Shown: positions 11,065-44,365 of the stretch, one piece after another
Position numbering within the stretch: the first letter of the stretch is position 1
Layout of the letters: each line of letters starts with the position of its first letter
Origin: a virus
IMG/VR virus record: IMGVR_UViG_3300031857_000311
Coordinates: 1 to 49,175 of that record
DNA: 49,175 nt
Direction: 5' to 3' (one strand)
Made by a program: the position numbers and the translations under genes
Notes under the pieces: generated by a model
Database searches by the model: none
Told to the model about the DNA's origin: nothing
The model's input: only the letters and a program-made list of their open reading frames with translations

Positions 11065-11883
11065 ATGAAAACAACAGAACTATTTAAAAAAGCTGACGCT
11101 AAAACGATCAATGAAACTATTGAAAAAACATTTGGTCAACGCATCAGTTTAGAAAACTATACTCTAGATCAACTAGAAGATTCACGCAACAGGCTTAGAA
11201 CACAGATTTATCAGTTCAAGCAAAACTCTGGATTTAACGAAACTATCGAAAACGACGATTATTCTCGTGCTCAATGGATGTTAGATGCTATCAACGCAGA
11301 GATAGATCAGCGTGGCGAAGTTACTATGGAAAGCCCAGAAGGAAATCCGGAAACCCAAACAGGAGAAGAAATGAACACTCAAGTAAGAGAAAGTGCTACA
11401 GACAAGGCCAGTGCTGTAGTTACTGCTAAATCTATGGTAGATAGAGTAGGCCGTTGGATTGAAGATCTAGCACAGATGGAAAATGATCAGTTGCTAGAAC
11501 TAGGTGATGTTATACGTGACGAAATGGGACAAGAGCAGGCTAAAGCATTTGTTAGCCAAGTTGCCCCAGCTATCCAAGCAGCGTTAGAAACATTAAAGAC
11601 AACACGTGAAGCATTAAGCTCGGGAGTTCGTGTACTATCCGGTGACGAGCAGCCAACAGATATGTTAGGTGCTGAGCCTACAGATGAACTAGGTATGGAA
11701 CCCGGAGCAGACATGGGTGCTGACCCAGCTGCCCCAGACGAATTAAACGCCGGAGAGCCAATTCCAGCAGAAGATGATTTTGCTGCCGCTGAACCAGCTG
11801 CTGGCGGTCCAGAAGAAGCAGGTCGTGCTAAACGTGAAAGCATTGAAAGACAAAATCGACTATTGAAAGTTCTAGCAGGCTAA
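11065..11883 (+). CDS. Acidic head/scaffold-like protein, 272 aa
   Basis: The N-terminal 90 residues are helical (DQLEDSRNRLRTQIYQFKQ). Residues 110-195 form another helical block. A long acidic Pro/Ala/Asp/Glu-rich linker covers about residues 198-250, and the protein closes with a basic helix (AGRAKRESIERQNRLLKVLAG). Acidic linker plus basic C-terminal helix is common among phage scaffold and core proteins. It shares TAATG coupling with the next gene. No named family. Confidence 0.55.
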   Translation: MKTTELFKKADAKTINETIEKTFGQRISLENYTLDQLEDSRNRLRTQIYQFKQNSGFNETIENDDYSRAQWMLDAINAEIDQRGEVTMESPEGNPETQTGEEMNTQVRESATDKASAVVTAKSMVDRVGRWIEDLAQMENDQLLELGDVIRDEMGQEQAKAFVSQVAPAIQAALETLKTTREALSSGVRVLSGDEQPTDMLGAEPTDELGMEPGADMGADPAAPDELNAGEPIPAEDDFAAAEPAAGGPEEAGRAKRESIERQNRLLKVLAG

Positions 11884-22152: not shown

Positions 22153-22793
22153 ATTATCAAGTCACTCCGTTATTTGCTATTCCCTTATACCAAACCCAAC
22201 TGGCTAAATTAACTTCTCTAGAACATGAATTTATTCTAAATCTAGAATATGAAAGAATGCCAGCTGACAACGGTGACTACACCAAAGACAAATATGTTTT
22301 AGAAAAGCCAGAGCTAACCTTTCTAAAAGAACGCATTGTAAAAGGCATAGAACATTTTGTCTACGAAGTGCTAGATTGTTCACGTGAAGTTAAATTTGAA
22401 ATACAAAACAGTTGGGTCAATAGGCACGGCCAAACAGACTTTGCCGGCACCCACAGACATTCAAATAGTTTGATCAGCGGTGTGTACTATATCGATGTTG
22501 ATCAACAAAGCGGTGCTATTGTATTTGAAAAAGATAAAAGTTACTATAATCTTTGGCCTAATGTTATAGACATTGAATTCAATTATCAAACACACGAAGA
22601 CCAAAGTAGGTTAAACATATTCAACGCTGACGGATGGGGCATCTATCCTAAAGTAAACGAATTAATAATGTTTCCTAGCCATCTGTATCACGGAGTAGGC
22701 GAAAATCATTCCAATATCGTCCGTTATAGTCTAGCATTTAATGTATTCCCCAAAGGTAATCTAGGCGGCAAATTGAACACTTTATACATATAG
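22149..22793 (+). CDS. 2OG-Fe(II) oxygenase-like protein, copy 2
   Basis: 214 residues with the same order of motifs as the gene before it: LFAIPLYQTQ, AGTHRHSNSLISGVYYI, ELIMFPSHLYHGV and RYSLAFNVFPKG. The two copies overlap by four bases and appear to be a tandem duplication that has diverged. The core His in THRHSNS is one step different in context from MHWHSNS of copy 1, so the two may have different substrates. It ends at a strong promoter for the tmRNA. Confidence 0.75.
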   Translation: MNYQVTPLFAIPLYQTQLAKLTSLEHEFILNLEYERMPADNGDYTKDKYVLEKPELTFLKERIVKGIEHFVYEVLDCSREVKFEIQNSWVNRHGQTDFAGTHRHSNSLISGVYYIDVDQQSGAIVFEKDKSYYNLWPNVIDIEFNYQTHEDQSRLNIFNADGWGIYPKVNELIMFPSHLYHGVGENHSNIVRYSLAFNVFPKGNLGGKLNTLYI

Positions 22794-22822
22794 TTGACAA
22801 AATCTAAAAAAGAGTATTAAAT
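22794..22822 (+). promoter_or_regulatory. Sigma-70 promoter of the permuted tmRNA
   Basis: TTGACA and TTAAAT are separated by 17 bases. Transcription would start near 22829, just before the acceptor piece. Confidence 0.7.
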
Positions 22823-22828
22823 ATAAGT

Positions 22829-23143
22829 TATTGCTGTATGAAGCAAAGAGAAAAGTGTTCTGGACGCGGGTTCGACCCCCGCCAGGTCCACCATAAAGGA
22901 GATTAGCATGAATGACGATCTAACTAACGTAGGAATAGGCGTAGTTGTTGTTCTTGTAGTATTTGCTCTAGTTCTTTTATGATGGGCCTGACATTGGTTT
23001 CGACAGGGCAAAGAGTAACAGAGTGGACAGCACGTCAGGAGTAGACGTAAAAAGCAAAACAACGTAAACGCAAACGACGAACAGTTCGCATTAGCAGCCT
23101 AAACACTGCTTAGGGTAAGACATACCTCGTAACAGAAACTCAG
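22829..23143 (+). ncRNA. ssrA: Circularly permuted two-piece tmRNA
   Basis: The 3' (acceptor) part comes first: a T-arm GCGGG-TTCGACC-CCCGC (22866-22882), acceptor strand CAGGTCC (22883-22889) and ACCA to 22893. The 5' (coding) part begins at 22984 with GGGCCTG, which pairs base by base with CAGGTCC (one G-U), followed by the tmRNA signature GGTTTCGACAGG. The tag frame GCA...TAA (23070-23102) encodes ANDEQFALAA. ACAGCA at 23027-23032 can pair with TGCTGT at 22832-22837, possibly part of helix P2. The mature molecule would have two pieces after removal of 22894-22983. The tag is beta/gammaproteobacterial in type. The outer 5' end is estimated from the promoter. Confidence 0.93.
22908..22982 (+). 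CDS. 24-residue membrane microprotein inside the tmRNA intervening segment
   Basis: An ATG 10 bases after AAAGGAG, itself starting only three bases after the acceptor CCA, opens a 24-codon frame that stops at 22982, one base before the first G of the coding piece. The peptide has a polar start (MNDDLTN) and then a single hydrophobic helix (VGIGVVVVLVVFALVLL), like a minimal transmembrane peptide. The frame and ribosome site fill the intervening segment almost exactly. Whether it is translated before processing is unknown. Confidence 0.65.
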   Translation: MNDDLTNVGIGVVVVLVVFALVLL

Positions 23144-23165
23144 AACCCGCTTCGGCGGGTTTTTT
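23144..23165 (+). terminator. tmRNA terminator
   Basis: AACCCGC and GCGGGTT pair around TTCG, followed by a T tract. It also faces the end of the leftward gene at 23164. Confidence 0.9.
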
Positions 23166-24039
23166 ATTCTATAAATTTTATTGCTACAAATCTGTTGTTC
23201 GACACCGGGCCACTAAACTTAACTTGTCCAATGGCAAATTCGTAGGGCACAGTCTTCGGATCAATATTATAAGTTTTTAACCATTTGATAAACTCAGGGT
23301 GCTGATAAATTTTTTTTCTATTTTCGTTAACATCGATACAAAACCCCCCAAATGAACCTAACCGTCCTGTACAGTCAAGCTCTCTTGGGTAATCATTGTC
23401 AAAAAATGATTGTAAAAAACTTTTACCTAATATAGATTGATTTAATATAGCAACTGGACCTTCAGTCTGCATAAAGTTAAAATTTTGTTGTTGTTCTTCT
23501 TTGGTAAATTCTAGGAAATTTAAAGAACTTGCGTCTGTTTCAAAATCTAAAAATTCCAAAGGCAATATATCGAACAGGAATTTATTTTTATTTGGGTGTA
23601 CAACATTTTCTAACTTATGTACAGCATCGTTTATAGGATCAATTAATGCTAACCAATCTTTAAATTTTTTAATAAACGGCGGCGGATGAAAATTGGGATC
23701 AAATGGATTAGGTTGATGATTACGAAATTCCCACCACATACAGTTATAAGTGAAAAATCTGTGTATTTGATTTAAGACCTTTTGATCATAGTTAAAATTG
23801 GGAGAAATTTCAAACGGTATTTTATATTCAATAGCTTTTAAATTTTCAAATGCCTGTAGGACATTTTCCCATTCGGCAGGATTCTTGTTATTACCAATCA
23901 GTCCAGATCTTCTTAAGAATGATTTTTTAAATTTGTAATCTAAAGTTTTTGAAAATTCAAACCATTTTCGTATGCCGGGATTATCAAACAACTCTACCGT
24001 AACTAAATTTGAATTTTCAAAAAGTATTTCTATCTTCAT
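23164..24039 (-). CDS. Unknown phage protein, 291 aa
   Basis: The ATG at 24039 (MKIEILFENSNLVTVELF) follows a TATAAATA octamer by four bases; an in-frame ATG at 24057 would lie upstream of that promoter. The protein is rich in Phe, Asn, Lys and Asp, soluble, without a clear motif; segments such as LDFETDASSLNFLEFTKEE and GRLGSFGGFCIDVNENRK seem enzyme-like or scaffolding. The lower GC content than neighbours is mild. It stops in the tmRNA terminator region. Confidence 0.55.
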   Translation of the reverse strand: MKIEILFENSNLVTVELFDNPGIRKWFEFSKTLDYKFKKSFLRRSGLIGNNKNPAEWENVLQAFENLKAIEYKIPFEISPNFNYDQKVLNQIHRFFTYNCMWWEFRNHQPNPFDPNFHPPPFIKKFKDWLALIDPINDAVHKLENVVHPNKNKFLFDILPLEFLDFETDASSLNFLEFTKEEQQQNFNFMQTEGPVAILNQSILGKSFLQSFFDNDYPRELDCTGRLGSFGGFCIDVNENRKKIYQHPEFIKWLKTYNIDPKTVPYEFAIGQVKFSGPVSNNRFVAIKFIE

Positions 24040-24246: not shown

Positions 24247-24804
24247 ATGAAAACAGTTGGCGATAAACTAGAAAAATTTGCAGTAACAGGTGTTAAACCT
24301 GGTCAGCCCAGTGATGCTTTTTTTGACATCACAGAAAAATCTTTTGAAGGTAAATGGAAAGTAGTTGTTTACTATCCAAAAGATTTTACATTTGTGTGCC
24401 CAACAGAAATCGTTGCCTACGACAAATTGTCTAAGGATTTTGAAGACCGCGATGCTGTTCTACTTACAGGTAGCACAGACAACGAGTTTTGTAAAGTCAG
24501 CTGGCAAAATGCCCACCCTGATTTAAAAAATATCAAACACTTTCAATTCGCTGATACACAGCGTTGGAATAATGACACTATGGAAGACCTAAGCCTAATT
24601 AACCAGCTTGGTATATTCTATGCTCCGGCGGGTGCGGCATTACGTGCTACATTCATCATTGACCCAGAGAACGTTATCCAACACGTGACTGTCAACAACT
24701 TGAACGTCGGTCGCTCACCAGAAGAAACTCTGCGTGTGTTAGACGCACTTCAAACTGGCGAACTATGTGCTTGTAACCGTACAGTAGGCGGAGAGACTCT
24801 ATAA
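24247..24804 (+). CDS. ahpC: Peroxiredoxin (AhpC/Prx1 type)
   Basis: 185 residues: DFTFVCPTEIVAY holds the peroxidatic Cys 51 and the Thr/Glu of the active site; RATFIIDPENVIQH is the conserved C-terminal strand; GELCACNRTVG ends with Cys 174/176, in the place of the resolving Cys. It reduces hydrogen peroxide, organic peroxides and peroxynitrite. The gene is joined to ahpD by TAATG, so the pair would act as a peroxidase with its own reductant adaptor. It is expressed from a sigma-70 promoter, probably early. Confidence 0.95.
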   Translation: MKTVGDKLEKFAVTGVKPGQPSDAFFDITEKSFEGKWKVVVYYPKDFTFVCPTEIVAYDKLSKDFEDRDAVLLTGSTDNEFCKVSWQNAHPDLKNIKHFQFADTQRWNNDTMEDLSLINQLGIFYAPAGAALRATFIIDPENVIQHVTVNNLNVGRSPEETLRVLDALQTGELCACNRTVGGETL

Positions 24805-25310
24805 TGGCATTCATTGACGCCATCAAAGAAGCGTTGCCAGACTACGCAAAGGACACTAAGTTAAATCTTGATGCTGTTCTTTTGCGTAGTACATTGGATG
24901 CTGATGTGGCCATGGGTTGTGCCGTAGCCGCATTAGCCGCAACTGGTAACGGAAAGGTACTGGCTGTATTACTAGCTGATGCTCCGGTTCACGCAGACTC
25001 AGCAATGACAGCCGCAAGCATTATGGCACAGAACAATGTGTGGTACCCATTTGTTGAGATGGCTGACGATCCAGCACTAAAGGGATTGCCGGCAGGTCTA
25101 CGTATGAACGCCATTGCTAGCCATGGCGGAACTACCAAGTCAAACTTTGAAGCATTCAGTTTAGCCGCTAGTATTGTTGGCAAGTGTCACTTCTGTGTGA
25201 AAGCACATTACGAAACACTCAAGCAAGAAGGCTACACAGTTGAACAGCTTCGTGACATTGGTCGCATTGCCAGTGTTATGAACTCAGTAGCCAAAGTGTT
25301 GAATAGCTAA
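24804..25310 (+). CDS. ahpD: AhpD-like alkylhydroperoxidase
   Basis: 168 residues, all-helical, with VGKCHFCVKAHYETL: Cys 128, Cys 131 and His 135 form the CxxC-x3-H site of AhpD. MAFIDAIKEALPDYAKDTKLN at the start is the usual N-terminal helix. AhpD can reduce AhpC, commonly through lipoyl protein in the host. It is translationally coupled with ahpC. A hairpin follows the stop by 67 bases. Confidence 0.92.
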   Translation: MAFIDAIKEALPDYAKDTKLNLDAVLLRSTLDADVAMGCAVAALAATGNGKVLAVLLADAPVHADSAMTAASIMAQNNVWYPFVEMADDPALKGLPAGLRMNAIASHGGTTKSNFEAFSLAASIVGKCHFCVKAHYETLKQEGYTVEQLRDIGRIASVMNSVAKVLNS

Positions 25311-25376
25311 AATCGCTAACTTCTTTTAATGATATTCACTATGTGTTTTATGGTGATTCTGTCATATAATAACGAT

Positions 25377-25399
25377 ACATACTAGTGCAGTATGTTTTT
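25377..25399 (+). other. Inverted repeat/hairpin between ahpD and pqqA
   Basis: ACATACT and AGTATGT pair perfectly around AGTGC, followed by five T. It may be the ahpD terminator or an operator/leader hairpin for pqqA; a weak TATAAT lies at 25365-25370, upstream. Confidence 0.5.
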
Positions 25400-25417
25400 A
25401 TTAAAAGGAGTACGATT

Positions 25418-25489
25418 ATGTGGACAACACCAGAAGCAGTTGAAATGCGTTACGGATTCGAAATCACTATGTACGTGATGAATCGATAA
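25418..25489 (+). CDS. pqqA: PQQ precursor peptide PqqA
   Basis: AAAAGGAG lies eight bases before ATG. The 23-residue peptide keeps all landmarks of PqqA: Met-Trp at residues 1-2, Pro 5, Arg 11, Gly 13, Phe 14, then GFEITMY with Glu 15 and Tyr 19 at the spacing of the pair cross-linked by the radical enzyme PqqE, and Asn-Arg at the end. The length is identical to the Klebsiella form. PqqB-E would have to come from the host. It is followed by a terminator, so it is expressed as a single small transcript or from ahpCD readthrough. Confidence 0.9.
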   Translation: MWTTPEAVEMRYGFEITMYVMNR

Positions 25490-25498
25490 TAAAGACCT

Positions 25499-25520
25499 AG
25501 CCCACTTCGGTGGGCTTTCT
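25499..25520 (+). terminator. pqqA terminator
   Basis: AGCCCAC and GTGGGCT form a stem around TTCG, followed by TTTCT. It is ten bases after the pqqA stop. Confidence 0.85.
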
Positions 25521-25521
25521 C

Positions 25522-25550
25522 TTGACTTAAATTTCAAAAGGTAATATACT
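25522..25550 (+). promoter_or_regulatory. Sigma-70 promoter of the small SGNH gene
   Basis: TTGACT and TATACT are separated by 17 bases. An ATG lies exactly at the expected +1 (25557), in frame with the better-supported start at 25581. Confidence 0.75.
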
Positions 25551-25580
25551 ATATCTATGATTGAAATTTTCGGAGGAATA

Positions 25581-25979
25581 ATGTTAGATTGTTTAATTAT
25601 GGGTGACAGTATTGCTGTAGGCACAGCCCAGGTGCGACAAGAATGTGTTTCATATTCCAAAGGCGGCATCAACAGTTACCAATGGTTGAACTCAAACGTA
25701 GGTAAAAGTCCTTACGTTGCCAAAACTGTTATTATCAGTTTGGGATCAAACGATCACAAATATGTAAAAACGGAAAGTGAAATACGAACCATTAGAACAC
25801 TTACTAAAGCAGATCGTGTTTATTGGATTTTGCCAGCTATCAAACCCAATATTCAAGAAATTGTTATAAAGGTAGCGGCTGAATTTGGCGATGTAGTTTT
25901 GCCAATAACACGACTACAAAAAGACGGCGTCCATCCAAGTTGGGCAGGTTACAAAGAGTTAGCTGCTCAAACTAAGTGA
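25581..25979 (+). CDS. Small SGNH/GDSL-like hydrolase
   Basis: I use ATG 25581, which has TCGGAGGAAT before it. An in-frame ATG at 25557 at the promoter +1 would add eight residues. Motifs: MGDSIAVG (catalytic Ser in block I), LGSNDH (block III Asn) and KDGVHPSWAGY (block V, Asp and His). Block II Gly is in YSKGGINSY. The 132-residue size is short for the family but complete in motifs. The enzyme may remove ester groups from surface sugars; the substrate is unknown. Confidence 0.85.
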   Translation: MLDCLIMGDSIAVGTAQVRQECVSYSKGGINSYQWLNSNVGKSPYVAKTVIISLGSNDHKYVKTESEIRTIRTLTKADRVYWILPAIKPNIQEIVIKVAAEFGDVVLPITRLQKDGVHPSWAGYKELAAQTK

Positions 25980-35080: not shown

Positions 35081-35638
35081 ATGAGTCTTAAAGAACTTAC
35101 TAAAGAAAAGCACCAGGACGCAGAACGCACAGAATTTGCTAAACTTTTGTTGAGCGGAAAAATCAGCAAAGAAATGTACGGGCTCTATCTAGCCCAGATG
35201 TTAGAAGTCTACGGCAAATTAGAATATTATTGTGTAAAAGCAGAACTACTAAAAGATTTACCCGGACTAGGTCGTGCTTTATATATTTTTGAAGATCTAA
35301 AAGAACTAGACATTCCCCTAACTGGTATAAAGATACTAGAAGCTACTAGTGCCTATTCCGAATACCTTGCTACCCTCGCAGAAGATGAAACCAAACACCA
35401 CTTACTAATGGCTCATCTATATGTACGACATATGGGCGATCTATATGGCGGTCAGATGATTGCTAAAAAAGTGCCTGGCAGCGGTAAGTTTTATCAATTT
35501 AGAAATAAAGAAGAATTAATAGGTAAGATACGAGCCAAACTCACGGATGACCTAGGCGATGAAGCTAATATCGCATTTGATCATGCTATTGCTATTATGA
35601 AGGAACTTAATGAGTCTAGTTTGGAACACGCTGATTGA
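35081..35638 (+). CDS. ho1: Heme oxygenase
   Basis: 185 residues, all-helical: LTKEKHQDAERTEF with the heme-ligand His 11, LGRALYIFEDL, and LLMAHLYVRHMGDLYGGQMI with the Gly-rich distal helix. It converts heme to biliverdin, iron and carbon monoxide using ferredoxin. The next gene, overlapping by 29 bases, is a bilin reductase, so biliverdin is the probable product used. Cyanophages carry ho1, but the surrounding genes here do not suggest a cyanobacterial host. Iron release is another possible benefit. Confidence 0.93.
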   Translation: MSLKELTKEKHQDAERTEFAKLLLSGKISKEMYGLYLAQMLEVYGKLEYYCVKAELLKDLPGLGRALYIFEDLKELDIPLTGIKILEATSAYSEYLATLAEDETKHHLLMAHLYVRHMGDLYGGQMIAKKVPGSGKFYQFRNKEELIGKIRAKLTDDLGDEANIAFDHAIAIMKELNESSLEHAD

Positions 35639-36290
35639 AATCCAACATCAGCTAGAAAAACAATTCGAAGAAACCGGAATTGAAACTCAAGAGCCGGGTA
35701 TGAGTAGATTCAATCAGCCGGGTTGGGTAAACAGGGTATGGACTAGTGGCAATTATCGTAGAGCTCATATCGATGTAGTCGATGCCCGATCCACAAAGGG
35801 CCTCTGGATGATGCACTGTTGTGTATTTCCTCATATCCATAACCCGGCACCCATATTTGGATTTGATGTAATCGCAGGTAAGAACAAAATTACAGGGTGT
35901 TTCTTAGACTATAGTCCTACTACAGATCGTGAACATCCGATGATAGAATACTTTGCTGAAGAAGTGTCTAGATATGAGTGGATACGTAAGCGTGAACTAC
36001 CAGACTGGGCACAACGTATTTTTAGTCCACATATGGTAGCTGCGGGCAATGTACAAGCAGAAGATGAACTAAGTCAAATTTCTAATCTAGCACATGTTAT
36101 GATAAACCATTACTTAGAAACTGTGGGTGAAACTAATAACATGACAGCTGATACTACTTTTGAACAAAATTTTTATGCTCAAAATCAAAAACAAAATCCA
36201 CACACGCCTAGAGTAATGACCAGTCTTGGTCTAGATGAAGAGGATGTCAAAGTCTTTATACAAGACTGTTTATTCCCCGAATTACGCTAA
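35610..36290 (+). CDS. Ferredoxin-dependent bilin reductase (PebS/PcyX/PcyA family)
   Basis: 226 residues. GLWMMHCCVFPH contains His 69, equal in context to His 88 of PcyA; IFGFDVIAGKNKITGCFLDY has Asp 86, equal to Asp 105, and the conserved LDYSP. The N-terminal GNYRRAHIDVVDAR holds an Asp where PcyA has Glu, as seen in viral forms. The C-terminal DCLFPELR is usual. It would reduce biliverdin to a coloured bilin such as phycoerythrobilin. The viral PcyX type found next to heme oxygenase in uncultured oceanic phages is the nearest match I know; the exact product cannot be set from sequence. Confidence 0.85.
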   Translation: MSLVWNTLIEIQHQLEKQFEETGIETQEPGMSRFNQPGWVNRVWTSGNYRRAHIDVVDARSTKGLWMMHCCVFPHIHNPAPIFGFDVIAGKNKITGCFLDYSPTTDREHPMIEYFAEEVSRYEWIRKRELPDWAQRIFSPHMVAAGNVQAEDELSQISNLAHVMINHYLETVGETNNMTADTTFEQNFYAQNQKQNPHTPRVMTSLGLDEEDVKVFIQDCLFPELR

Positions 36291-43519: not shown

Positions 43520-43687
43520 ATGAACAATTCGTGGAACGCTTTAGATAATGTGTTCGATTTACAAATTTGGTTTTTCCTACAGATGTACTATTGGCCTTAT
43601 TATGCTATAGGCAAACAAGATGATTGGAAAGACTGGGTTGGATCTAGTTTAAACGGATGGCGTGTTTCTAATCTTTGCAAGCCTTAA
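43520..43687 (+). CDS. Small Trp/Tyr-rich protein, 55 aa
   Basis: The frame starts four bases after a late-type GTTAAATA octamer (43508-43515), with no Shine-Dalgarno. The peptide is rich in aromatics (DLQIWFFLQMYYWPYYAIG) and could sit on a membrane surface. Its last 39 bases overlap the end of the desaturase gene on the other strand. No family is recognised. Confidence 0.45.
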   Translation: MNNSWNALDNVFDLQIWFFLQMYYWPYYAIGKQDDWKDWVGSSLNGWRVSNLCKP

Positions 43688-44365
43688 AAACTTTAACACG
43701 ATTATATAAAACCATCCAATATCAAATTCATACCATTTTTTACTGAACTTGGCACTAGCACCATCGCCGTGGTGATTATTATGCAACATTTCTCCACCAA
43801 TCCAAAAATCAATTGGTAGTAAATTGCGGCTAGTGTCTTTAACATCGTAGTTGCGATAACCCCACCAATGAGCAGCACCGTTAATAACACCTGCTGCCCA
43901 AAATGGAATCCATATCATTTGGACTCCCCACACAATCATCCCTGTAGGGCCAAAGAGCAATAGGTCTATGACCAACATCAAAAGAATCCCTGCGAGGGGG
44001 TAGGGAGTGTAAACTTTTTCTTCAATCCAATCATTAGGTGTACCGTGACCTAGATCGTTAATTAATATTTTATTACGTTTTGCTTTGACATATAAAAATG
44101 CTCCGCCAAACAATACCCGCCATATGCCATGCTGTTTAGGACTATGTGGGTCTTGTTCTGTATCTGCTGCTTGGTGATGTTTTCGATGTACAGCGACCCA
44201 CTCACGAGTGTTCATGCCTGTGGTCATCCATAACCAAAATCGCATAAAATGTGCCACTATCGGATGAAACTGTACCGATCTGTGTGCTTGTGATCTGTGT
44301 AAGTAGAGTGTAACACATGCTATGGTAATTTGAACCATAACTAAAGTTGCTATTATTTTATCCAT
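43649..44365 (-). CDS. Fatty acid desaturase (delta-9 type)
   Basis: 238 residues with three histidine boxes for the di-iron site: HRSQAH (H23-H28), HRKHH (60-64) and HNNHH (195-199), interleaved with membrane segments (LLMLVIDLLLFGPTGMIVWG). TREWVAVHRKHHQAAD is the core. The type is the acyl-CoA/acyl-lipid delta-9 desaturase found in bacteria and reported in marine phages. It introduces a double bond with oxygen and a ferredoxin-like donor. It would raise membrane fluidity. Confidence 0.93.
   Translation of the reverse strand: MDKIIATLVMVQITIACVTLYLHRSQAHRSVQFHPIVAHFMRFWLWMTTGMNTREWVAVHRKHHQAADTEQDPHSPKQHGIWRVLFGGAFLYVKAKRNKILINDLGHGTPNDWIEEKVYTPYPLAGILLMLVIDLLLFGPTGMIVWGVQMIWIPFWAAGVINGAAHWWGYRNYDVKDTSRNLLPIDFWIGGEMLHNNHHGDGASAKFSKKWYEFDIGWFYIIVLKFLRLAKIRNTPSV

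Follow-up and report, generated by a model that had tools for sequence, protein, structure and literature searches.

A 72-bp pqqA gene in a phage of the jumbo lineage, a probable supplier of PQQ precursor peptide to the host pathway

The 49,175-nucleotide stretch of viral DNA analyzed here (IMG/VR record IMGVR_UViG_3300031857_000311, hereafter the window) carries an intact phage gene for PqqA, the PQQ precursor peptide. We propose that this gene is functional and that it probably supplies the substrate peptide only, the chemistry being left to PqqB to PqqE of the host, which we assume to be present in the host of the window phage. As far as sequence evidence goes, the host pathway likely uses the phage peptide as its substrate, which constitutes the best reading; that the phage gains by way of methanol or other quinoprotein dehydrogenases is a reasonable guess, slightly better than even.

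The identity of the gene is near certain. Its frame is intact from the ATG at 25418 to the TAA at 25487 to 25489, and the 23-residue product holds Glu15 and Tyr19 as an ExxxY motif within the core GFEITMY; we take these two residues to be the ones that PqqE would cross-link. The peptide scored 33.3 bits against the Pfam PqqA family PF08042 (cut-off, 21.1; E = 4.5e-8) and 32.9 bits against the NCBIfam equivalog model TIGR02107 (cut-off, 20; E = 4e-8). It was the sole PqqA match of the whole 49,175-base record (E = 2.3e-8), which excludes a chance match. The profile searches, on which an earlier sequence-only reading had staked its call, thus clearly recognized the PqqA landmarks that it had described, including the Glu/Tyr spacing, and the 23-codon gene with its own Shine-Dalgarno (SD) sequence and terminator was found as described, apart from the imperfect tail of the terminator-like hairpin (Table 1). 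The start codon, the SD sequence, the intact frame, and the protein-level constraint reported below together point to translation. No PHROG family covered the window pqqA. An antisense 96-amino-acid open reading frame (25382 to 25672), probably spurious, runs across the gene, much as public methylophage records carry an antisense "hypothetical protein" annotated on pqqA.

Table 1. Features at and around pqqA in the window
Feature	Coordinates	Strand	Remarks
tmRNA, permuted betaproteobacterial type	22780..23166	+	Tag ANDEQFALAA; 140 bits; host clue
AhpC/TSA-family peroxiredoxin	24247..24804	+	Pfam PF00578, E = 7e-20; upstream neighbor of pqqA
Carboxymuconolactone decarboxylase-family (AhpD-like) protein	24804..25310	+	Pfam PF02627, E = 9.4e-10
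TATAAT, possible -10 box	25365..25370	+	Just 5' of palindrome; upstream region conserved in relatives
Palindrome ACATACT-AGTGC-AGTATGT	25377..25395		19 bp; near putative transcription start
Shine-Dalgarno sequence AAAAGGAG	25403..25410	+	7 nt 5' of ATG
pqqA, PQQ precursor peptide	25418..25489	+	23 codons; translation MWTTPEAVEMRYGFEITMYVMNR; profile matches
Intrinsic-terminator-like hairpin AGCCCACTTCGGTGGGCT	25499..25516	+	Followed by T-rich, imperfect tail

As the sequence-only reading had noted, the phage gene stands without the enzymes of the pathway. No pqqB-E was found in the window (tblastn), in seven other phage genome records, in the jumbo relatives described below, or around pqqA in any of 227 viral contigs (in the fetched DNA, which is the whole contig for small ones). 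Similarly, PqqD gave no family match in the window, none in the jumbo relatives, and none in seven complete phage genome records, for which the host control was positive. Adjacency to pqqB-E is common but not required for PqqA; the window gene lacks it, as do most of the host copies that we fetched. The ahpC-like and ahpD-like genes overlap each other, and the pair sits directly 5' of pqqA, in the jumbo relatives too, possibly forming a phage peroxide defense or redox module.

The window also encodes virion structural proteins, a tail-spike-like protein, a class I ribonucleotide reductase, and a 2OG-Fe(II) oxygenase. As a candidate phage auxiliary metabolic gene, pqqA is carried in a true phage genome and kept by selection. 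One virion protein (142 to 1512) has 408 relatives in IMG/VR, the best 80 of which include contigs of up to 364,554 bp, indicating that the window belongs to a jumbo-phage lineage. Six of the 46 related records searched carry pqqA (G015, G017, G020, G024, G030 of 364 kb, and G032 of 166 kb), many of the negative ones being fragments. Several jumbo relatives nevertheless appear to span the locus without the gene, and pqqA thus comes and goes within the lineage and is not essential there. In G015, G017, and G024, the ahpC-like/ahpD-like/pqqA block is syntenic with that of the window at about 71 to 83% DNA identity, and in G020 the ahp pair is kept about 1.1 kb 5' of pqqA. Within the lineage no PQQ_2-family match rose above the cut-off, and as a candidate PQQ-dependent dehydrogenase the single sub-threshold match, in G030, was not retained. 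Elsewhere in the window, positions 35081 to 36290 encode a heme oxygenase (PF01126; E = 2.6e-19) overlapping a ferredoxin-dependent bilin reductase (PF05996; E = 4.9e-16; PHROG "ferredoxin oxidoreductase"). These two enzymes are the bilin-making pair of cyanophages, found here in a phage whose host signs are betaproteobacterial. A fatty acid desaturase gene (PF00487; E = 2e-11) lies on the minus strand at 43649 to 44365.

In the jumbo lineage, pqqA appears to have its own regulation. The palindrome upstream of the window gene, searched as ACATACT-N5..8-AGTATGT, occurs exactly once per genome in all seven pqqA-bearing records, including the 364-kb contig, and each time just upstream of pqqA; it was found in none of the four relatives without pqqA that were tested and upstream of none of 131 host pqqA copies. 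From this distribution, the palindrome is probably a dedicated operator for pqqA, close to the transcription start, which would most simply have been acquired or have evolved along with the gene. Its strand does not fold into an RNA hairpin, its stability being that of shuffled sequences (z = 0.10), so a DNA operator is preferred to an RNA structure. A sigma-70 promoter was also considered; despite the TATAAT, the promoter scan gave no good -35 element and made no call.

Beyond this lineage, pqqA is present in several phage groups. A tblastn search for PqqA against 50,697 phage records returned 12 matches. Nine are methylophage records (P19250A, Venkman, MEP301, MEP401, MEP402, and four of Melnitz, all phages of Methylophilales/Methylophilaceae), and the other three are the environmental genome Manatee Spring and two records belonging to a single Acinetobacter entry. 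Further methylophage isolates listed in the taxonomy, such as HIM624-A and MEP431 to MEP434, did not appear among the 12. None of the nine methylophage records has the gene annotated as pqqA, the site bearing either no feature or the antisense "hypothetical protein." Common gene callers omit genes shorter than 90 bp, and the 72-bp pqqA has likely been missed for this reason. Degenerate DNA-pattern scans of viral contigs (at least 120 contigs from the first, and 92 and 22 from two complete scans) yielded at least 227 distinct contigs with a clean pqqA, each with a short open reading frame whose start lies a few codons 5' of the W..P motif. An SD sequence precedes 232 of 234 viral pqqA genes, against 25 at random control places, and a terminator follows 102 of the 234 viral genes and 120 of the 131 host genes, the corresponding control places giving 7 in each set. 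Among the 29 P19250A-clade contigs of 15 kb or longer, 21 carry pqqA, by coordinates roughly 0.7 to 1.6 kb from the marker gene; since about four of the eight contigs without it stop short of the site by coordinates, about 21 of 25 informative contigs are positive. A distinct viral PqqA type, with GMEITAY (GMEITSY in one case) in place of GFEVTMY, was seen in 22 contigs (L340 to L357, L026, L042, L079, and L100), and the long C-terminal tail of the L351 peptide resembles alphaproteobacterial PqqA. Contig L273 bears two tandem pqqA genes, at 11629 and 11763, 134 bp apart and encoding EMR and ELR versions, which is a dosage increase inside a phage.

Each PQQ made uses up one molecule of PqqA, while PqqB to PqqE are catalysts. 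The dosage of pqqA is consequently a natural control point, and for the same reason a 72-bp gene would be the cheapest route for a phage to hold or raise PQQ, e.g., under host transcription shut-off. In the model that we propose, the phage gene would be transcribed during infection and provide extra PqqA peptide, which host PqqD would bind and whose Glu and Tyr host PqqE would cross-link; host proteases, PqqB, and PqqC would then complete PQQ. The PQQ gained would load the quinoprotein dehydrogenases of the host (methanol dehydrogenase in methylotrophs), sustaining the flow of energy and carbon on which phage production draws. Ten Methylophilaceae genomes gave between 1 and 12 PqqA matches each. 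Of the 120 host loci that we fetched, just 22 have pqqB-E near pqqA, and 3 to 12 pqqA copies with usually a single pqqBCDEFG have been described (PMC4109929). Hosts and phages may thus have reached the same solution of pqqA dosage. The cross-linking of Glu and Tyr of PqqA by PqqE is established (PMC12997753), and reported effects of pqqA dosage are moderate: overexpression of pqqA alone is cited in PMC7936290 as raising PQQ in Gluconobacter, and in Acetobacter PQQ rose by only 29% with pqqAB overexpression, compared with eightfold with pqqABCDE.

Several other readings of a lone phage pqqA have to be weighed against the supply of substrate. A precursor peptide made without its enzymes could compete, acting as a decoy that occupies PqqD or PqqE with no PQQ made, thereby stopping periplasmic dehydrogenases or diverting SAM, and the jumbo-lineage peptides do depart from the Methylophilaceae consensus. 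We nonetheless hold a decoy to be quite improbable. Read from the codons, purifying selection acts on viral PqqA at the peptide level, with pooled pS of 0.60 versus pN of 0.135, third codon positions differing most, and one 22-residue peptide core written as 17 DNA versions in viruses. The main scans required the Glu and Tyr codons; in a further scan that left both free, Glu was present in 120 of 120 viral peptides and Tyr in 120 of 120. This retention fits the need of a PqqE substrate and is difficult to square with a decoy, which would not need both cross-linked residues, or with a passenger; moreover, many phage peptides exactly equal host PqqA. The adjoining ahpC-like, ahpD-like, and pqqA genes in the window and its relatives would also suit a phage that raises PQQ as an antioxidant or redox factor in infection rather than for dehydrogenases. 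This use is improbable, if a little less so than the decoy, because the ahp neighborhood is specific to the jumbo lineage, different genes flanking pqqA in other phages, and because among sequenced phages pqqA goes with methylotroph hosts and not with stress genes.

The origin of the gene bears on two further readings. The P19250A pqqA has 66 identical bases in common with a host copy, so some phage-host exchange is recent, and the many pqqA copies of host genomes are potential targets; the gene could then be hitch-hiking host DNA or an attachment site, carried through recombination or integration there and not for its peptide. That is very unlikely, given that the entire gene and its SD sequence are retained under protein-level constraint and that the window shares at most 20 identical nucleotides in a row with the host pqqA regions fetched; the phage-only grouping of the window gene, given next, also speaks against it. 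The tree that the sequence-only reading had called for is weak on 66 nt of pqqA, few forks being resolved (16 starred of 309 inner branches), and two of its results are usable: the window lies inside a set of 54 rows, every one from a phage (SH-aLRT, 95), and phage/host labels change at least three times on well-supported branches (39 times on the best tree). The gene has therefore probably been acquired several times, the copy of the window seeming to descend from an old phage-borne line. As for mislabeled bacterial DNA, it does occur: the examined contig of the entry labeled Acinetobacter phage MD-2021a (L010; CAKLQF020000010.1) carries pqqABCDE, ppk, and other cellular genes, looks bacterial, and was set aside as a pqqA phage. 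For the named phages and the window, mislabeling is already refuted, and for the viral contigs at large its probability is negligible, as the nine methylophage matches are complete genome records, the 227 viral contigs are free of pqqB-E in the fetched DNA, and the window has virion and tail-spike-like proteins and other phage-type genes. The supply of substrate peptide to the host pathway remains our preferred reading.

The methylotroph host suggested by the sequence-only reading is plausible for the window phage, whose PqqA is similar to both Methylophilaceae and other Burkholderiales types. The tmRNA gives no closer assignment: DNA and covariance-model searches of sampled Methylophilaceae and other pqqA-bearing (PQQ-making) Burkholderiales genomes returned nothing above the cut-off, and host assignment by this route was dropped. 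Phage tmRNAs can mismatch the host, as in Melnitz (PMC9004378), and the tmRNA therefore indicates only Betaproteobacteria in a broad sense. Among candidate hosts, a Methylophilus genome has PqqD, and several Methylophilaceae have pqqB-E adjacent to pqqA.

The usual phage auxiliary metabolic genes encode enzymes, whereas here the phage brings only the peptide that a pathway consumes. Feeding the PQQ pathway of the host seems to be a common viral tactic that has been overlooked. Altogether, we lean, with some reserve, toward provision of the substrate peptide alone being a general and convergent tactic in phages of PQQ-dependent bacteria, acquired several times, retained by the majority of at least one methylophage clade, given its own regulation in the jumbo lineage, and almost unseen since its 72 bp lie below the usual gene-caller minimum. 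If the proposed role is true, infected methylotrophs would be limited by their supply of PQQ, and methanol oxidation would be influenced by the viruses of methylotrophs that abound in marine and freshwater habitats. This can now be tested in cultured pairs with a pqqA phage (Venkman and Melnitz with H5P1, MEP401 and MEP402 with FZCC0133, MEP301 with FZCC2181, and P19250A with IMCC19250). Viral annotation has a blind spot for genes shorter than 90 bp, and pqqA may be usable as a host marker for viral contigs.

Contrary to the statement in the sequence-only reading that no well-described phage pqqA is known, at least one had been reported before, in VP_266, a Methylophilaceae phage population of Lake Baikal, together with methanol dehydrogenase and a proposal of enhanced methanol oxidation (PMC7678222). 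A 2026 reservoir study grouped viral pqqA with phosphorus-cycle genes (PMC13188868). Searches of the papers on MEP301, Venkman, and MEP401/402 turned up neither PQQ nor pqqA, and PQQ occurs in the Melnitz paper solely as a vitamin of the medium. What appears new here is the breadth and conservation of phage pqqA, its lineage-specific regulation, and its presence in cultured phage-host pairs. Like the window, VP_266 is a viral contig with pqqA, which is annotated there, and its predicted host is a methylotroph (PMC7678222); it differs as a T4-like contig with methanol dehydrogenase, whereas the window lineage has a dedicated palindrome and no PQQ_2 match above the cut-off. The orphan pqqA genes of Methylophilaceae are likewise small single genes with SD sequence and terminator, apart from pqqB-E (PMC4109929), and multiple pqqA genes are cited for Methylovorus MP688 in PMC9851590. 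They are, however, cellular and near-uniform (12 peptides among 131 host copies), whereas the viral peptides are more varied. With the PqqA families PF08042 and TIGR02107, finally, the window peptide shares its length, the W..P start, the G-F-E-x-T-M-Y core, and the Glu/Tyr spacing, the difference being that the window copy is encoded alone, on a phage.
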